Below, one piece after another: positions 38,262-59,905 of a stretch of DNA of 64,000 bases (positions are counted from its first letter, which is position 1; the number at the start of each line of letters is the position of its first letter). Source of the DNA: Eledone cirrhosa (Eukaryota > Mollusca > Cephalopoda > Octopoda > Eledonidae). The notes beneath the pieces were generated by a model. The model did no database searches, was not told the DNA's origin, and saw nothing but the letters and a program-made list of their open reading frames with translations. A program made the position numbers and the translations under genes. Where the stretch lies: contig OZ024743.1 of the NCBI GenBank assembly GCA_964016885.1, forward strand, positions 172,553,176-172,617,175. The letters are read 5' to 3'.

Positions 38262-40000
38262 CTTTCTGCTAAAATGGTGAGTCTTGGTGATATCTATTAT
38301 TATAAACTACTGCTAAAAATGGTGCCTCCGACGGAGGAAAATTAGCAGTATTTAAAAAAACTTTCAACACGAGGAAATTAGTTTCAAAATGGCTATCACC
38401 AAGTCCTCCACTACCAACAACAGCAGCAGCAGCGACAACATTGGTTAACCACTAACCATAAACAACGGAATAACTATGTGGCAACTTCTTCGTTGGAACA
38501 AAACGAACACAAAAAAATTCTATTCCCACCTCACGTGGTGACAACGTTCAAATGCTTCTCACTTGGCTGTTTACACTTTCGCTATATCTTACTACGAACC
38601 ATTCATTAAATTGGACTCTTTCATTTTCGAACATGATATTTCTTTTTCTGAAAATTACACCTTGTGTCTTTCTCGTTCAGCCAAGCTTTTGTTTAAGACC
38701 AACAACCAATATGGCGACTGTTGCCTTCCTCTTTCATTTTCGAGCAGCCATCTTGTCTTCTTCGTTTCGTCATTTTCACGCGCGGCGGATTTTACCAACA
38801 CACTCATTGCTATTCATCTCAAAGAATAGTTCGGCCACGAGCTACTTTATTAATGCCAGTAAAAAAATTGCGACACCTTGCGTCGTAAATTGACGTCACT
38901 TGCTGGGCATTTTTATGCACGTTCGTTCTGCGGTCAGCTACTTAAAACTTATCTGGACTCACTCAGATCAACAACCGCTCATCTGGACTTACTCAGATCA
39001 CAGCTCTCAACTGTTTCTTTTTTTCAACATTGACCAACACATCTTGGCTGAAATTTCTGGAAAAAAATTTTGCGCGCTCTTCTTTTGGGATCTTCTAACT
39101 CTGAACGAGTTGTTTCCCTTGGAACAACTTTAAAAGGCTGCGAGAGCGAACAACCACTTAAAAAACAATTCTTTCTTTCTTTTTTTTTTACAGGCAATGT
39201 TTGGACATTTATTTCTTTTAAACTGTATAATATGAAAATTCATTTTTTTTTCTCTATCATTGTATATATGACTGCAGGCACACATTTTATTTGCTGTATT
39301 ACATGCCTCCATATGCACACACATTTCTTTGTCACACACCAACATGTTGTTGTCTATAGTATATGATCTTCAAGCGCCGTAATATTCTGCGAGATCCCTT
39401 TTCACCTGGTGGAGGTACCAAAACATGCTGTCGACACTTGCAGCTTAATTCACCTGCACCGCAACACGAGAATGCTAATTGCAGCGGGATTCAAACAGTT
39501 TCGCTTCTCGTTGCACACTCATCGTCCTATAGCATAACAACCTCCATCTTGTTACTTTACCCGACTAACAGGGAAAACAACAAATGGAACTGGACCAGTC
39601 AGCATTTCCACCATTTCTCCTATGGATTCACCAGAATTATGGAATTACCGCTTCAACTGCTACCCACCTACAGATTCAACTTACTTTTTTCTTTTCAAAG
39701 CAACTAGCTATTTTTTCCTGGCTGCCTAGCACTTCCGGCAATTCATCTGGGAGGCCGACAATTTCTCGCCTACCCATCATCTTCTTGCAAGCTCTGCTAA
39801 AACATTTACCATCACAGCTCCAGCTATACAGCTCTGGTATAACATTTACCATAACAGCTCTGGTATAACACTTACCATAACAGATATACAGCTCTGGTAA
39901 CGCATGAACAGCACCATCATTGACAACAGCTACTGGTAAAACAATGTATTTCTAAGCACTCTTTGGTTATTCCTATAACTATATATATATATATATATAT
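38262..40000. other. No recognised gene; minor repeats
   Basis: I recognise no protein family here. ORFs of up to about 115 codons exist (38552-38893, 39363-39707) but show no motifs. There is a short tandem repeat of about 26 bp (cagctctggtataaca) at 39820-39900 and a short (TA)n at 39981-40000. Confidence 0.6.
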
Positions 40001-40126
40001 GAAGATAGATATAGAATATTCGAAAATATTCTGTATGTTTATAATAAACATTTTGAAGACCTAATCGCTATAGAATAGAATACGTCACGTATTACAATTT
40101 ATAGATTCTCGATAAAAGCAAGGGAA

Positions 40127-40169
40127 GTAACCTACGCGTTTCATTCTTATTAGAAATCTTCAGGATTAC
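40127..40169 (-). ncRNA. Hammerhead ribozyme, array unit 1
   Basis: Minus strand. Stem I is GTAATC with GGTTAC (six pairs, one G-U). The core CTGAAGA and GAAA are intact. Stem II is TTCT / AATA loop / AGAA after one T-T mismatch. Stem III is minimal (A-C / G-T around GC), position 17 is A, and cleavage is predicted just before GGTTAC. The sequence between the boxes is colinear with type I hammerheads that have a tiny helix III. Confidence 0.78.
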
Positions 40170-40436
40170 ATATCCAGTGCTTTTATCGAGAATGACACAG
40201 CTAGAGACTTATAGAATACTTAGCTGTGTAAAGGAACTGGTTTGAAAGAGCGGTTGCCGGTCCGGCAGAAATTAGAAATTGGATTAAATGCTCTGAAATA
40301 GCGATATATATGTGAAGATAGATATAGAATATTCGAAAATATTCTGTATGTTTATAATAAACATTTTGAAGACCTAATCGCTATAGAATAGAATACGTCA
40401 CGTATTACAATTAGATTCTCGATAAAAGCAAGGGAA

Positions 40437-40479
40437 GTAACCTACGCGTTTCATTCTTATTAGAAATCTTCAGGATTAC
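40437..40479 (-). ncRNA. Hammerhead ribozyme, array unit 2
   Basis: Identical fold to the one at 40127-40169, 310 bp further on. Transcription through the array on the minus strand would give unit-length RNAs if both sites cleave. Confidence 0.78.
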
Positions 40480-41149
40480 ATATCCAGTGCTTTTATCGAG
40501 AATGACACAGCTAGAGACTTATAGAATACTTAGCTGTGTAAAGGAACTGGTTTGAAAGAGCGGTTGTCGGTCCGGCAGAAATTAGAAATTGGATTAAATG
40601 CTCTGAAATAGCGATATATATGTGAAGATAGATATAGAATATTCGAAAATATTCTGTATGTTTATAATAAACATTTTGAAGACCTAATCGCTATAGAATA
40701 GAATACGTCACGTATTACAATTAGATTCTCGATAAAAGCAATCCTCAGATATGCCTCGGTATGTAAGCTTTCTCTGATTTTGTGCAGTAGATTGTTATAT
40801 TCAGCATATTCTAACAACGTGATATTCTGCGTTCCCTCATTAATTTCTCCCACCATTGGTTTATTTCCAAAATAGCGCCTACTCCCATCCGGTCATGTTG
40901 TCGTGTGCATTCATGCTTGAAAGGCTGTCTGTCTGACTTACACAGCCACACTTATTTTAAGTGTTCGTTAGACTATAAGTCTTACTTAGGATGCGTTGTT
41001 GTTGACAGGAGGGGGAGCGTCTACTACTAACTCTGAGCGTCAAAAAAACTACCCGAAAAGGAGAATTGGTCAACATCATTGGATGCTTCCGAAACCACAG
41101 GGGTTTTTTTTCAGAGTTTATCTCTCCTAGAGAGGTGTTGTTACAACAA

Positions 41150-43161: not shown

Positions 43162-43229
43162 TTTGTTTTGTGTCCATTTATTAAACTATATATATATATA
43201 GTTATGTAATAAACAACATAAGATAATTA

Positions 43230-43290
43230 TTTCATTTACCAGTGGTTTCTTGAAAGCAAACAAAATTTGCTTTCAGTCATCAGAATGAAA
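43230..43290 (-). ncRNA. Hammerhead ribozyme, left palindrome arm
   Basis: Minus-strand mirror of the 43367-43427 ribozyme. The core is the complement of 43277-43283, and stem I strands are the complements of 43284-43290 and 43230-43236. All invariant positions are present. Confidence 0.85.
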
Positions 43291-43366
43291 AAATCCTTGT
43301 GTATTTATTGACAGTGGATTTTAAAAACCTTTTTAAAATCCACTGTCAATAAATACACCAGGATTT

Positions 43367-43427
43367 TTTCATTCTGATGACTGAAAGCAAATTTTGTTTG
43401 CTTTCAAGAAACCACTGGTAAATGAAA
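43367..43427 (+). ncRNA. Hammerhead ribozyme, right palindrome arm
   Basis: Stem I TTTCATT (43367-43373) pairs perfectly with AATGAAA (43421-43427). Core CTGATGA is 43374-43380. Stem II (43381-43407) has about ten pairs after one C-A mismatch, loop TTTTG. GAAA is 43408-43411. Stem III is ACC / ACT loop / GGT. Position 17 is A43420, with cleavage predicted between 43420 and 43421. It is the best-formed hammerhead in the window. Confidence 0.87.
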
Positions 43428-43540
43428 TAATTATCTTATGTTGTTTATTACATAACTAATAAGCTCTGTAACCTACATAGAGCACTCTTTTTTCCTGGAC
43501 CTTTCCGACGGAATTACTTCATTTATATATATATAAAGAA

Positions 43541-44976
<1,436 letters not shown>

Positions 44977-45176: not shown

Positions 45177-45180
<4 letters not shown>

Positions 45181-45181
<1 letters not shown>

Positions 45182-45617
45182 TTGGTGCTCTGAAATAGCG
45201 ATATATATATGAATGTATATATAGTGTATTTTGCAATACACTGTATGCTTAATTAAAAGCATTTCGAAGACCTTACGCTATTGTTTTAGAGTAGTGACAG
45301 TCTCTCTTTAAATTTTCAGCAAACATATACATATACATATACGTATACATTCATATATATATCGCTATTTCAGAGCACCAATTCTAATTTTCAATTTCTG
45401 CTTGACCGGCAACATTCATGATTTTCAGCAAACAGGTGGAGTACTTAGCTTTGATAAGTACCAAAAAGTACGAAACAGTGTTCTGTCAGCTTTATCTTCC
45501 CTGTTTGCTGAAAATTTAAAGTAAGTGAGACTGTCATTACTCTAAAACAATAGCGTAAGGTCTTCGAAATGCTTTTAATTAAGCATACAGTCTATTGCAA
45601 AATACACTATATATACA

Positions 45618-45625
<8 letters not shown>
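45181..45625. repeat. Snap-back element with internal hammerhead-like motif
   Basis: Arms 45181-45325 and 45485-45625 are inverted repeats (block aagaccttacgctattgttt). The loop region carries a hammerhead-like motif and an inner inverted copy of the terminal ctatttcagagcaccaat. It belongs to the same superfamily as the elements at 40.0 and 59.6 kb. Confidence 0.83.
45446..45492 (+). ncRNA. Hammerhead-ribozyme-like motif (two core changes)
   Basis: Stem I AGCT with AGCT (45447-45450 / 45488-45491). The core reads TTGATAA (45451-45457) in place of CUGANGA. Stem II GTAC / GTAC has a six-base loop, and GAAA is at 45472-45475. Stem III CAG / CTG is closed by A-T. The GTC cleavage triplet ends at 45487. 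The fold is kept but the core mutations predict low or no activity. Confidence 0.6.
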
Positions 45626-45713
<88 letters not shown>

Positions 45714-45714
<1 letters not shown>

Positions 45715-46602
45715 GAGGTGTGTCAGAAAAGTTCCAGGACTTATGTCACAAAAGATTTATTTCAAACCCAAACTTCACACATAAGAGTTTTCTCCTTCAA
45801 AGTAATCCCCCAGGAGTATGTAACTGTAATCTCAGCTCTCTGCAGCGATCAAACATTTTTCTTCATAATTTTATATACATGTCCTCTGTTTCAGGTCGTC
45901 AAGCAATGAGCAACGAACAAACTTCAAGTTTCTGGTACGGTTAGGGAAAACTCCGCTGCAGCAAGTCTATGGAGATGAGACGATGTCACGCTCACGTGTT
46001 TTTGAGTGGTGCAAAAAGTTTAAAGAAGGACGCGAGGACGTGGAAGATGACCCCAGGAGCGGAAGGCCCTCAACAACCAGGACTGAGGTCAACGTTGAGC
46101 GCGTCAGGCAGATGGTGCGTAGCGATCGTCGGCTGACTGTTCGACTGATGGCAAATGAGCTGGGCATGAATCGGGACAGCGTCTGGAAGATTCTCACTGA
46201 AGATTTGGACATGCGGAAAGTCTGCGCGAAGATGGTGCCAAAACTGCTGAACGATGACCAGAAGGATTGACGCATACAAGTGTGCCAGGACATCCTCGGG
46301 TGTCTTGAAACCGAACCAGACTTGCTAGGGACAGTCATCACCGGTGATGAATGGATCTTCGAGTACGACCCGGAGGGGACCCGTTTTGAAGACGTGGACG
46401 ACATCAAAAAGGCCGTGACGACGGAACTGCGGAGGATCCCGGAAGAATCCTTCCAGGAGTTCATGCAAGCGTGGCAGAAAAGGATGGAAAAGTGCATTAG
46501 ACTCCAGGGGGATTACTTTGAAGGAGAACACTCTTAGTGTGAAGTTTGGGTTTGAAATAAATCTTTTGTGACATCAGTCCTGGAACTTTTCTGACACACC
46601 TC

Positions 46603-46603
<1 letters not shown>
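45714..46603 (+). mobile_element. mariner-type DNA transposon, internally deleted (890 bp)
   Basis: Terminal inverted repeats of about 100 bp start cgaggtgtgtcagaaaagtt at both ends, flanked by TA inside (TA)n. The interior has mariner transposase sequence with the catalytic centre removed. Confidence 0.92.
45906..46537 (+). pseudogene. mariner transposase remnant
   Basis: ATG at 45906 begins an N-terminus that shifts frame within about 15 codons. The next frame gives the HTH region (SRSRVFEWCKKFKEGRED, RSGRPST, then ANELGMNRDSVWKIL). A TGA at 46268 interrupts it. The first catalytic block (VITGDEWIFEYDPE) is present, but sequence then jumps to a C-terminal piece, so the second and third catalytic aspartates are missing. 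It cannot transpose itself but its ends could be used in trans. Confidence 0.88.

Positions 46604-46691
<88 letters not shown>
46604..46691. repeat. (TA)n microsatellite
   Basis: Right-hand continuation of the TA tract into which the mariner inserted. Confidence 0.95.
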
Positions 46692-47359: not shown

Positions 47360-49640
47360 ACCTACACCGCACGCTACAACAACACATACGGTCTATTTCC
47401 AGCGTAGTACCACAACTCGCTGAAACCCCAAAACCTCTGCTCAGAGTAATTTCCGCCGCTATAGACAGGTCATACCACCATCGCCGCGATTACGAGAAAA
47501 TACGCCTAAAGCAAACATTTCTCAAACTCATCATGGCTGACCGTCTTAACAACAACCCAACTCTAAGCACCAACAGAGGCGAACAAGACGGTACCAACAT
47601 CGAACCTAGCGGCGCCCCGACCAACAACACACCTGACGCAAAACACCTCGTCACAGACTTGACAGGATCCCTCTACCGAGATAAACTAGACCTCCTCAGC
47701 CTGGGTCCCAAGTTCATATTGAAACAGCGACTGGACGACAAATTTTGGCTCGACATAGAAACGAATTTCTGTCGGGCCGCCTACCAACTAAAATGGATAT
47801 CGACCCTCGGCAACAACACCACGGAATCTAACACACCCAGATTCCCGATATACCAACTGGACCGCCCACTCTGTCCACTGCCTGCCAACCGCGAGCTGGA
47901 AGAAAAACTCTCGAGGCTTACGGAAACAGAAGATAGCCCCAAACCTCTCCAGGACGCAACAACTCGCCCTGAAGAACCTGCGGAAAAGGGAACTCATATA
48001 CTTACCATCCGACAAAGGTAAAGAATTTTGTATCGTCTCTCAAGCCACATACCTAAGCGTCAACGAACTGTATACAGAGGTCCCGGACATAACTGCAGCC
48101 CAGATCGCAAAACAGGCCAACTCCATCTGGTTCGACATCTGTAGTAGAAGACAACTCCCAAATAAATTTAAGTTCAACTACACCACTAGAAATATCAGAC
48201 TGCCCACTTTCTATCACCTCATCAAGACCCACAAGAATAGTACTAAGATAAATAAGACCCATCGTCTCTAGCATAGAAGGACCCCTATACAAAATCTCCT
48301 GGCTCCTCTCCCAGGTCCTCAAGCCTCTACTCTCCACCTTTCCCGGGCATGTCAGTAGCTCCGACGAGGTCATGCGTAGACTACACCAACTCCAGCCAGA
48401 ACAACTTAAATTAAATAGATAGCCTTTAGCCTCGACTTTGTCTCCCTCTACACTACAGTCCCCGCCCATCCAGCTGTCGGTTTATTGACGGACTGCGTGG
48501 TCGCAGAGGACATCCACTGTAACGGCCTCCATCCGACGGACATACACCAGCTTTTGTCCTTCACAGTGGACAACACGTAATTCACCTTCCACCACCACAC
48601 ATACAGACAGACAACAGGATTACCCATGGGATCCAGCCTATCGGGCCTGCTGGCCATCACCTATATGAACCAGCTAGAATGCCGGGCCCTCAACACCTGC
48701 CATTCCTATACCTTCTTCACCCGATACGTAGATGACATTCTCATCCTTACATCATCCTGTGAGAAAGCGGATAAAATATACACGACATTCTCCAGCATGG
48801 ACGCCAGTATAAAGTTCAGCATGGAACACCCCGATGACCGCAGATCCCTATCCCTACTGGACTTCCAACTCAGGGTAACAGAGGAAGGCAACATCCACAC
48901 CTGCTTCTATAAAAAAAAAGTCACCAGCAGGGACCTGCTCGTACATTTCAGATCGGCCCTCCCAGCCAGCGTTAAGTTCGGATACATTAGGAACGAACTA
49001 ACACATATCCGGAACAAATGCACCGACGCAAGAGACCGAGACACACACACCACACATTTCCTGGAAGTACTTAAACTGAACGGATACACGACATCCACCA
49101 CAAACCGTGCCAGAAACAACAAAGGACACTACACCCGAGGCACTAACACCTACTTCCTGAAGCTCCCACACTTCAGTGACGAAACAACAACAGCCATTCG
49201 CAGAGTTATCAGACGAGAGGGACTAGACATCCAGCTAGCTCACTCAGGACCTTCTCTACGCGGACAGCTAACCAAAGGACACTCCACCAGACATGACAGC
49301 CGCTGCAGGCTAGCCAACTGCCCCATCAACGACACAGACCTATGCCACCAGGCTTACGTGGTATACAGATTAGAGTGCGACAAATGCAGCAATTTCTACA
49401 TAGGTAGCACCACCAGACCACTTCACATAAGAATAAAAGAACACCTCAATACTAACGCTTCCTCATTTAAGAAACACCTAGTGAAATGCAAAAAGACCGA
49501 CAAAAACATAATAGTTAGGATAGAAACTAAGGAAAGAAACCTCGGCAATCTTAGAATTAAAGAAGCACTGATTATAGACAAAACACAACCACCAATCAAT
49601 AACAGACTAGAACTCAACACCCAGTTTTTAACATGATAGA
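47360..49640 (+). mobile_element. Penelope-like element 2
   Basis: Coding remains of a Penelope-like element in the order N-terminal domain, RT and C-terminal GIY-YIG endonuclease, spread across shifted frames. A GC-richer coding sequence sets it apart from its surroundings. Termini are uncertain. Confidence 0.85.
47533..49636 (+). pseudogene. Penelope-like RT + GIY-YIG polyprotein, broken
   Basis: 47533-48021 gives the N-terminal domain (LSLGPKFIL). A shift near 48015 leads to YLPSDKGKEFCIV and LPTFYHLIKTHKN. A further shift near 48250 restores PIVSSIEGPLYKI. A TAA stands just before FTFHHHTYRQ, near 48580. From 48626 a clean frame runs to 49636 with the RT motif (MGSSLSGLLA), YVDD near 48727, LLDFQL, and the GIY-YIG core (VVYRLECDKC, FYIGSTTRPLHIR, KEH). 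At least two frameshifts and one stop make it inactive. The second half is well preserved. Confidence 0.87.
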
Positions 49641-59565: not shown

Positions 59566-59583
59566 TGTGTGTGTGTGTGTGTG
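59470..59583. repeat. (CT)n, (TA)n and (GT)n microsatellites
   Basis: Adjacent simple repeats immediately left of the snap-back element. Confidence 0.95.
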
Positions 59584-59905
59584 TAGTATATTTGGCAATA
59601 TACCGTATGTTTAAATAAAAACATTTAGAAGACCATACGCTATCAGTTTTAAAGTAGTGACTATGTCACTTACTTCTTCTCGGCGAAAGAAGAGAGAGAA
59701 GCTGACAGTCTGTTTCACGCTGGTTGGCGTTCATCAGAGCCACGTACTCCCCTGCTTTCGCCGAAAAGAGGTGACATAGTCACTACTTTAAAACTGATAG
59801 CGTATGGTCTTCTAAATGTTTTTAATTAAACATACGGTATATTGCCAAATATACTATACATACATTCATGTATACATCGCTATTTCAGAGCACCAATCCT
59901 AATAT
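59584..59905. repeat. Snap-back element with canonical hammerhead in its loop
   Basis: Arms 59584-59675 and about 59770-59866 are inverted repeats (agtatatttggcaatatacc ... ggtatattgccaaatatact), then a terminal ctatttcagagcaccaat block as in the 45.2-kb element. The loop encodes a hammerhead on the minus strand. Confidence 0.88.
59700..59742 (-). ncRNA. Hammerhead ribozyme with GUC cleavage triplet
   Basis: Minus strand: core CTGATGA (complement of 59731-59737), stem II ACGC / GCGT with a six-base loop (59717-59730), GAAA (59713-59716), stem III ACA / GAC loop / TGT, then C at position 17, giving the canonical GUC site. Stem I is GGCT with AGCT (one G-U). All invariant bases are present. 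Confidence 0.82.

Follow-up and report, generated by a model that had tools for sequence, protein, structure and literature searches.

Penelope-like elements (PLEs) usually carry their pseudo-LTRs (pLTRs) in a direct, tandem arrangement. An inverted arrangement is described for the Pen families of Adineta vaga, in which pLTRs are joined head to head in AT-rich targets (PMC3846280, in the part of that paper considered here). A 31-bp tail is optional on one inverted pLTR, and the palindromic junctions are read there as products of self-priming. The part of PMC11167929 drawn upon here deals with an anole PLE (Poseidon, PAc) that cleaves and extends both target strands and has two reverse-transcription start sites, the interval between them being the tail. 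A hammerhead at the start of its ORF acted only when protein was added, and in that part of the paper the two target strands do not differ in start site. In the same parts of both papers, steps of the mechanism are said to remain to be tested.

Hammerheads are also found in shorter elements. In the axolotl HHR_Amex2, which is weakly active (22% in one hour; PMC7229834, in part), the stem II foot is a U.U mismatch, and the W-elements of Schistosoma are satellite-like elements with hammerheads (PMC8490949, in part). Among open-access titles and abstract openings, no instance of hammerheads in a palindromic pLTR pair was found, which is not a claim of absence.

The window is the whole stretch of 64,000 nucleotides from Eledone cirrhosa that was analysed. 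Its ORFs include those of reverse transcriptases (RT), one with an endonuclease domain beside it, and microsatellites are present. The locus of interest is a non-coding palindrome of 260 bp that has no intact ORF of its own. Its two arms (43199-43327 and 43330-43458) are 129 nt each, 99% complementary, and separated by a 2-nt spacer. The palindrome, previously placed at 43201-43456 in a preliminary description, is real, with those limits falling 2 bp short at each end. As argued below, it is very probably the product of a single PLE retrotransposition that left two pLTRs head to head in an AT-rich microsatellite. Its parts are as follows, with other genomic loci designated by L numbers.

43187..43200, no strand: (TA)n to the left of the insertion, either target or short duplication
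43199..43327, minus strand: left arm, an inverted pLTR copy; its outer end (TAGTTATG..) lies at putative reverse-transcription start site 1 and adjoins (TA)n
43230..43290, minus strand: hammerhead motif, sense in the left arm; core from 43283 to 43237, predicted cleavage 43237^43236
43320..43337, no strand: palindrome centre (TTTAAAAACCTTTTTAAA), a head-to-head junction that differs in most copies
43330..43458, plus strand: right arm, a direct pLTR copy; L082, L085 and L087 have a near-identical arm before the PLE ORF
43367..43427, plus strand: type I hammerhead motif, sense in the right arm
43367-43373/43421-43427: right-arm stem I, UUUCAUU/AAUGAAA, 7 bp
43374-43380, plus strand: right-arm CUGAUGA core
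43382-43406: right-arm stem II lies within, 10-11 bp, with C.A at 43381/43407
From 43408, plus strand: right-arm GAA(A)
43411-43413/43417-43419: right-arm stem III, ACC/GGU, 3 bp
43419 and 43420, plus strand: right-arm U16.1 and H17 (an A), predicted cleavage 43420^43421
43459..43525, plus strand: one-sided PLE tail (ATAAGCTCTGTAACCTACATAGAGC...GGAATTACTTCATT), ending at putative start site 2 and followed by (TA)n

The genome (2.98 Gb, 1582 contigs) was searched with the palindrome. Out of 1534 first-look candidates, 40 places were scored (80 matches, each place on both strands), and all 40 copies were aligned. The Eledone cirrhosa genome contains at least dozens of copies like this palindrome, which is a common kind of genomic debris. 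Because the 40 genomic places have different flanks, an assembly artefact, which the preliminary description had allowed for, is very unlikely. Most copies have a conserved tail of about 67 bp after one arm, then (TA)n or (CA)n, while the opposite arm terminates at TAGTTATG and adjoins (TA)n. Both ends could be located in 39 of the 40 copies; the full 67-bp tail was on exactly one end in 37 of these, with a partial tail on one end in one and tails on both ends in one. The flanks are mostly (TA)n or (CA)n. Candidate target-site duplications of at least 10 nt were present in 9 of 54 copies against 4.4 expected, a count reached in 18 of 1000 shuffles; since the flanks are (TA)n, target-site duplications are only weakly supported.

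A search anchored on the tail gave 1877 candidates, of which 40 were scored and 30 loci used, three of them repeating earlier places. By manual count, an inverted left piece accompanied the tail in 22 of the 30 loci and was absent from eight. The fold-back point varies among these loci (arm positions 30, 43, 74/88, 94 and others), and single-arm copies extend beyond the palindrome centre into upstream sequence. In L078 the tail lies directly before an ORF region, and in L079 part of an RT lies between the inverted arms. An RT fragment between the arms of L070, taken as protein, had no Pfam RT match. The ORF region of L078 was searched against the genome (40 scored of 2115 candidates), and nine upstream stretches were fetched. 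In three of them (L082, L085 and L087) arm and tail run straight into the start of the ORF; of the other six, three are truncated in the 5' region, two are unrelated and one is mostly N. No direct pLTRs were noticed in the partial copies that were read, none of which is complete from end to end.

The L078 ORF fragment (393 aa) contains the RT motif YRDD and a GIY-YIG-like end, and has 548 relatives. A profile of 60 of these sequences aligned with the profile of the Pfam-matched RT/GIY-YIG ORF of the window over 397 columns (E 8e-11, probability 97%), and 12 of the 60 members had a Pfam GIY-YIG match at E<=0.05, the best at 5e-4. The L078 ORF itself had no Pfam match and no significant BLASTP match to the PLE ORF of the window (E 0.53); set against that ORF as a single sequence, the profile reached a probability of 28%. 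A comparison of A2 with solved structures returned two weak ASXL1 matches, none relevant. Read jointly, the profile-profile match, the GIY-YIG members and the arm and tail that run into an ORF identify the source as a PLE and the arm as its pLTR. Both linkage to the ORF and a one-sided tail on an inverted pLTR, by which a PLE derivative may be recognised, were found, and the palindrome is taken to be such a derivative, which the coding element either mobilised or left behind. The window also contains a separate PLE-type ORF (48626-49636) with RVT_1 and GIY-YIG, whose named relatives, among the matches listed, are all Octopus bimaculoides proteins (57% and 62% identity).

The likeness to the Pen families of Adineta vaga, as described in the part of PMC3846280 considered here, extends to the pLTR that precedes an RT/GIY-YIG ORF, the head-to-head inverted pLTRs, a tail on one of them (optional in Pen), the palindromic junctions and the AT-rich targets. 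In contrast to Pen, the copies read here are mostly pLTR-only, without the ORF, and many; the tail is 67 nt rather than 31, and the arm is about 129 nt in the palindrome and longer in some copies. With anole PAc (PMC11167929, in part) the elements share a hammerhead in the 5' part and AT-rich targets. Two start sites with the tail between them, and cleavage and extension of both strands, were shown for PAc and are putative here. An AC-rich stem-loop lies near the start sites of PAc, and GCTCT-GTAACCTACAT-AGAGC may be its counterpart here, as judged by eye. The hammerheads are placed differently: the predicted cleavage site here precedes start site 1 by about 38 nt and lies far upstream of where the ORF begins, whereas PAc is cleaved 26 bp inside the ORF, and here, unlike PAc, stem III is 3 bp and stem II 10-11 bp. 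Since the covered part of the anole study has no start-site difference between the target strands, the near-obligate asymmetry of the tail is not predicted by it. Animal retrozymes (PMC7229834, in part) are likewise short repeats with type I hammerheads that co-occur with PLEs, but they are direct tandem repeats without an ORF link, whereas the unit here is inverted and forms the 5' part of a PLE. Identification of the palindrome as an animal retrozyme (a direct tandem repeat of 170-400 bp with no ORF) was rejected, as the units are inverted and in some copies linked to an ORF.

Each arm has the layout of a type I hammerhead, with a CUGANGA core, GAAA, UH and the three helices in the order of that type. 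The two face-to-face motifs of the preliminary description are present, and its account of the boxes (CUGANGA and GAAA), the 7-bp stem I and the 3-bp stem III agrees with the layout, as does its stem II of about 10 bp, found to be 10-11 bp. The 5' product end that it gave, 43421, is also the site predicted from the layout, 43420^43421, with its mirror at 43237^43236. It was right as well that a transcript of either strand would contain one sense and one antisense motif. When a 73-nt stretch is folded in isolation, its minimum-energy structure is the hammerhead layout, with a predicted energy of -15.9 kcal/mol. As a control for chance, a layout scanner was run on one strand of simulated sequence, 951 Mb generated by a first-order Markov model with the composition of the window. 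At a minimal and much weaker setting (stem I at least 4, stem II at least 4 and stem III at least 2), 115 motifs were found, the best having 17 paired bases versus 21 in the observed motif; none in the simulated 951 Mb had a stem II of at least 10, and none was as good as that observed.

The foot of stem II in hammerheads is normally paired, as G10.1-C11.1. In the palindrome at 43199-43458 the corresponding letters (10.1/11.1) are C.A and unpaired. The preliminary description had named a covariance search with Rfam as the check on its motifs, and a search without a match as evidence against them. Over the window at the gathering threshold, Rfam gave no hammerhead match; at E<=10 there was none for both arms or for the right arm alone, and none was obtained in six relatives, five of them U-A carriers, or in the sister copy L029. 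The strong-looking scores of Rfam microRNA families on the palindrome (e.g., 102 bits for MIR2630, whose gathering score is 144) are due to the long hairpin and were set aside. The curated Rfam models, as run, miss a hammerhead form with a mismatched stem II foot. With the C.A foot and the lack of an Rfam match, the description of these ribozymes as fully formed was too strong.

Other parts of the window present hammerhead-like sequences. A direct tandem repeat of 310 bp at 39991-40741 (2.4 copies) has a hammerhead-like motif on the minus strand, with weak Rfam HH9 matches at 40113-40178 and 40423-40488 (17.1 bits, E 0.43, below gathering). By eye, this motif has a U.U at the stem II foot and a self-complementary ACGCGU stem III, and the repeat looks like an animal retrozyme array. 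On the minus strand at 59576-59864, an inverted repeat with 94-nt arms carries an apical hammerhead (for the stretch, 23.1 bits and E 7e-4 with Rfam HH9, below gathering); the segment 59660-59790 has a rod-like fold (-58.4 kcal/mol, z -6.5). A third, related repeat, inverted and with 108-nt arms, at 45180-45630 contains an apparently degraded hammerhead core near 45440-45520 (by eye), and a box like GGTGCTCTGAAATAGCGAT is common to this repeat and to those at 39991-40741 and 59576-59864 (by eye). Two further features have inverted repeats: an element at 45714-46607, with a broken mariner-like reading frame (by eye) and inverted ends of 155 nt (45626-45780/46537-46691, microsatellite included), and a large nested inverted repeat at 44104-44850 (272-nt arms, 97%).

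Conservation of the motif was considered across the family. From 103 matched arm stretches, 73 are distinct; 68 of these keep CUGANGA, and 64 also GAAAC. The letters at 10.1/11.1 in the 64 parsed stretches are C/A in 41, U/A in 17, A/A in five and C/U in one. Within the close family 93.6% of cells are paired, and covariation is slight, there being too little variation. Private differences, counted in the right arms of the 40 palindromes, amount to 0.48 per site in the hammerhead, 0.48 in the arm behind it and 1.16 in the arm before it, and to 0.31 per site at the 13 hammerhead core positions, which have no subfamily-level change. This pattern is at best weak as support for a conserved hammerhead. 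Diverged copies were found with a covariance model built in this analysis. In two sister copies (L029:959-1042 and L036:38-117) the sequence of stem II differs but still pairs, with two-sided pair changes that number three in L029 and two in L036 and may share one origin; in both, the C.A foot is kept and stem I is damaged. Retention of stem II by two-sided changes suggests a maintained RNA structure, and there is fair evidence that the hammerhead, mismatch included, was such a structure in the source element. In our judgement these compensatory changes outweigh the missing Rfam match as regards the existence of the motif. Two more distant pLTR relatives (L018:1862-1949 and 2602-2689) have a broken CUGANGA core and a retained stem III, with tail-like sequence adjoining the first, and a match at L089:246-314 is cut off inside stem II. 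Matches at L021:1896-1973 and L010:2709-2786 lack a hammerhead core, being other hairpins, and were discarded.

The manner in which the palindromes arose may be considered in terms of their centres and their arms. The 40 centres comprise 33 different sequences, with TTTAAA in eight. Since the centres differ in this way and other fold-back points occur in the tail-anchored set, most palindromes would have formed separately; copying of whole palindromes would account for them only if later mutation had made the centres differ. All 37 copies readable on both arms have the same letter at 10.1 in each. For 37 copies, arm divergence is 2.1% within copies and 5.2% between copies, and the copy's own right arm is the closest or joint-closest for just 15 of 37 left arms. 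Taken together, these figures point to both arms having been copied from one RNA, or one arm from the other. Under the PLE explanation, one pLTR copy would be primed at start site 1, where the arm ends, and the other 67 nt beyond it at start site 2, so that just one side would receive a tail. After such bilateral priming on one RNA, the two cDNA ends would be joined. As each pLTR has the type I hammerhead of the element, each strand would carry one sense and one antisense motif, and the role of the ribozyme may be to cut tandem PLE transcripts.

A more specific form of the PLE explanation may be put forward tentatively, as one that could well be wrong: the palindrome would be a one-step record of concerted bilateral priming at sites 1 and 2 of the same RNA, in which each target strand primes at a different start site, both cDNAs reach the 5' end of the RNA, and the two are joined with short filler. 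Another variant, somewhat unlikely in our view, replaces two-ended priming with snap-back self-priming of a single cDNA. Self-priming has been proposed for PLEs (PMC3846280, in part), the eight TTTAAA centres match exactly and lie inside the self-complementary TTTTAAAA of the parent, and the arms agree at 10.1; however, snap-back would copy the tail onto both ends, where two-ended tails were seen in one of 39 copies, and arms of unequal reach also occur. From the one-sided tail we infer that simple snap-back is disfavoured and that priming at two different start sites is favoured. An origin outside the PLEs, as a Tc1/mariner-type MITE with the arms as terminal inverted repeats, TA (2 bp) as the duplicated target and the hammerhead incidental, would suit long near-perfect arms flanked by TA, the many copies and insertion in (TA)n. 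It is very improbable, and was dropped, since the ends are unlike one another (just one of them has a full tail in 37 of 39 copies), fold-back points vary and single-arm copies exist, arm and tail are linked to a PLE by their position upstream of an RT/GIY-YIG ORF, and the longer candidate duplications of 10-11 nt occur in L010, L032, L034 and L054.

Whether the motif is a ribozyme at all, and what it does in the palindrome, are separate matters. A hairpin-rich repeat that merely resembles a hammerhead and was never a ribozyme would be consistent with the lack of an Rfam match, the mismatch at 10.1/11.1 and a hammerhead stretch that evolves no slower than the arm behind it. This is improbable given that 951 Mb of simulated sequence held nothing as good, that stem II is retained by two-sided changes in two sister copies, that the 13 core positions of the right arms lack subfamily-level change, and that the pLTRs of PLEs are a known home of hammerheads (PMC11167929, in part). 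The unusual switch raised in the preliminary description, by which a transcript would choose between a long hairpin and a self-cleaving hammerhead, draws on the fact that both folds are encoded and that the isolated 73-nt stretch folds best in the hammerhead layout. The full plus-strand transcript, however, is predicted to form one near-perfect hairpin that closes on a 4-nt loop at the palindrome centre. At -196 kcal/mol this hairpin makes up 41% of the ensemble and is favoured over the isolated ribozyme by about 180 kcal/mol. The hairpin could zip from its centre before the ribozyme is made, and the centres vary among most copies, so that in the main the arrangement is not passed on whole. 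A regulatory switch is thus most improbable, and the face-to-face arrangement, offered earlier as a device of this kind, is explained by PLE insertion through the one-sided tail, the ORF link and the varied centres. Because transcription reaches the hairpin centre ahead of the ribozyme in the 3' arm, the full palindrome should seldom allow that ribozyme to form, and little cleavage would be expected there. The predicted ribozyme in the palindrome at 43199-43458 most probably rides along as a passenger, hidden in the hairpin, and any importance that it has would be expected in PLE transcripts or single-arm transcripts.

By analogy with the systems described above, an inverted pLTR pair with a PLE ribozyme motif appears to be a known arrangement, and the double ribozyme may be regarded as a readable trace of Penelope retrotransposition. 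A PLE hammerhead with a mismatched stem II foot is missed by the Rfam models as run, so ribozymes of this form may be undercounted. Head-to-head junctions that vary in their centres and have just one tailed end can help to choose between self-priming and two-ended priming for PLEs. If concerted priming is correct, the near-obligate one-sided tail (37/39) would be a mark left by an asymmetric dimeric complex, and the family, with 40 copies read and 1534 candidates, would be a natural data set for the mechanism of PLE insertion.
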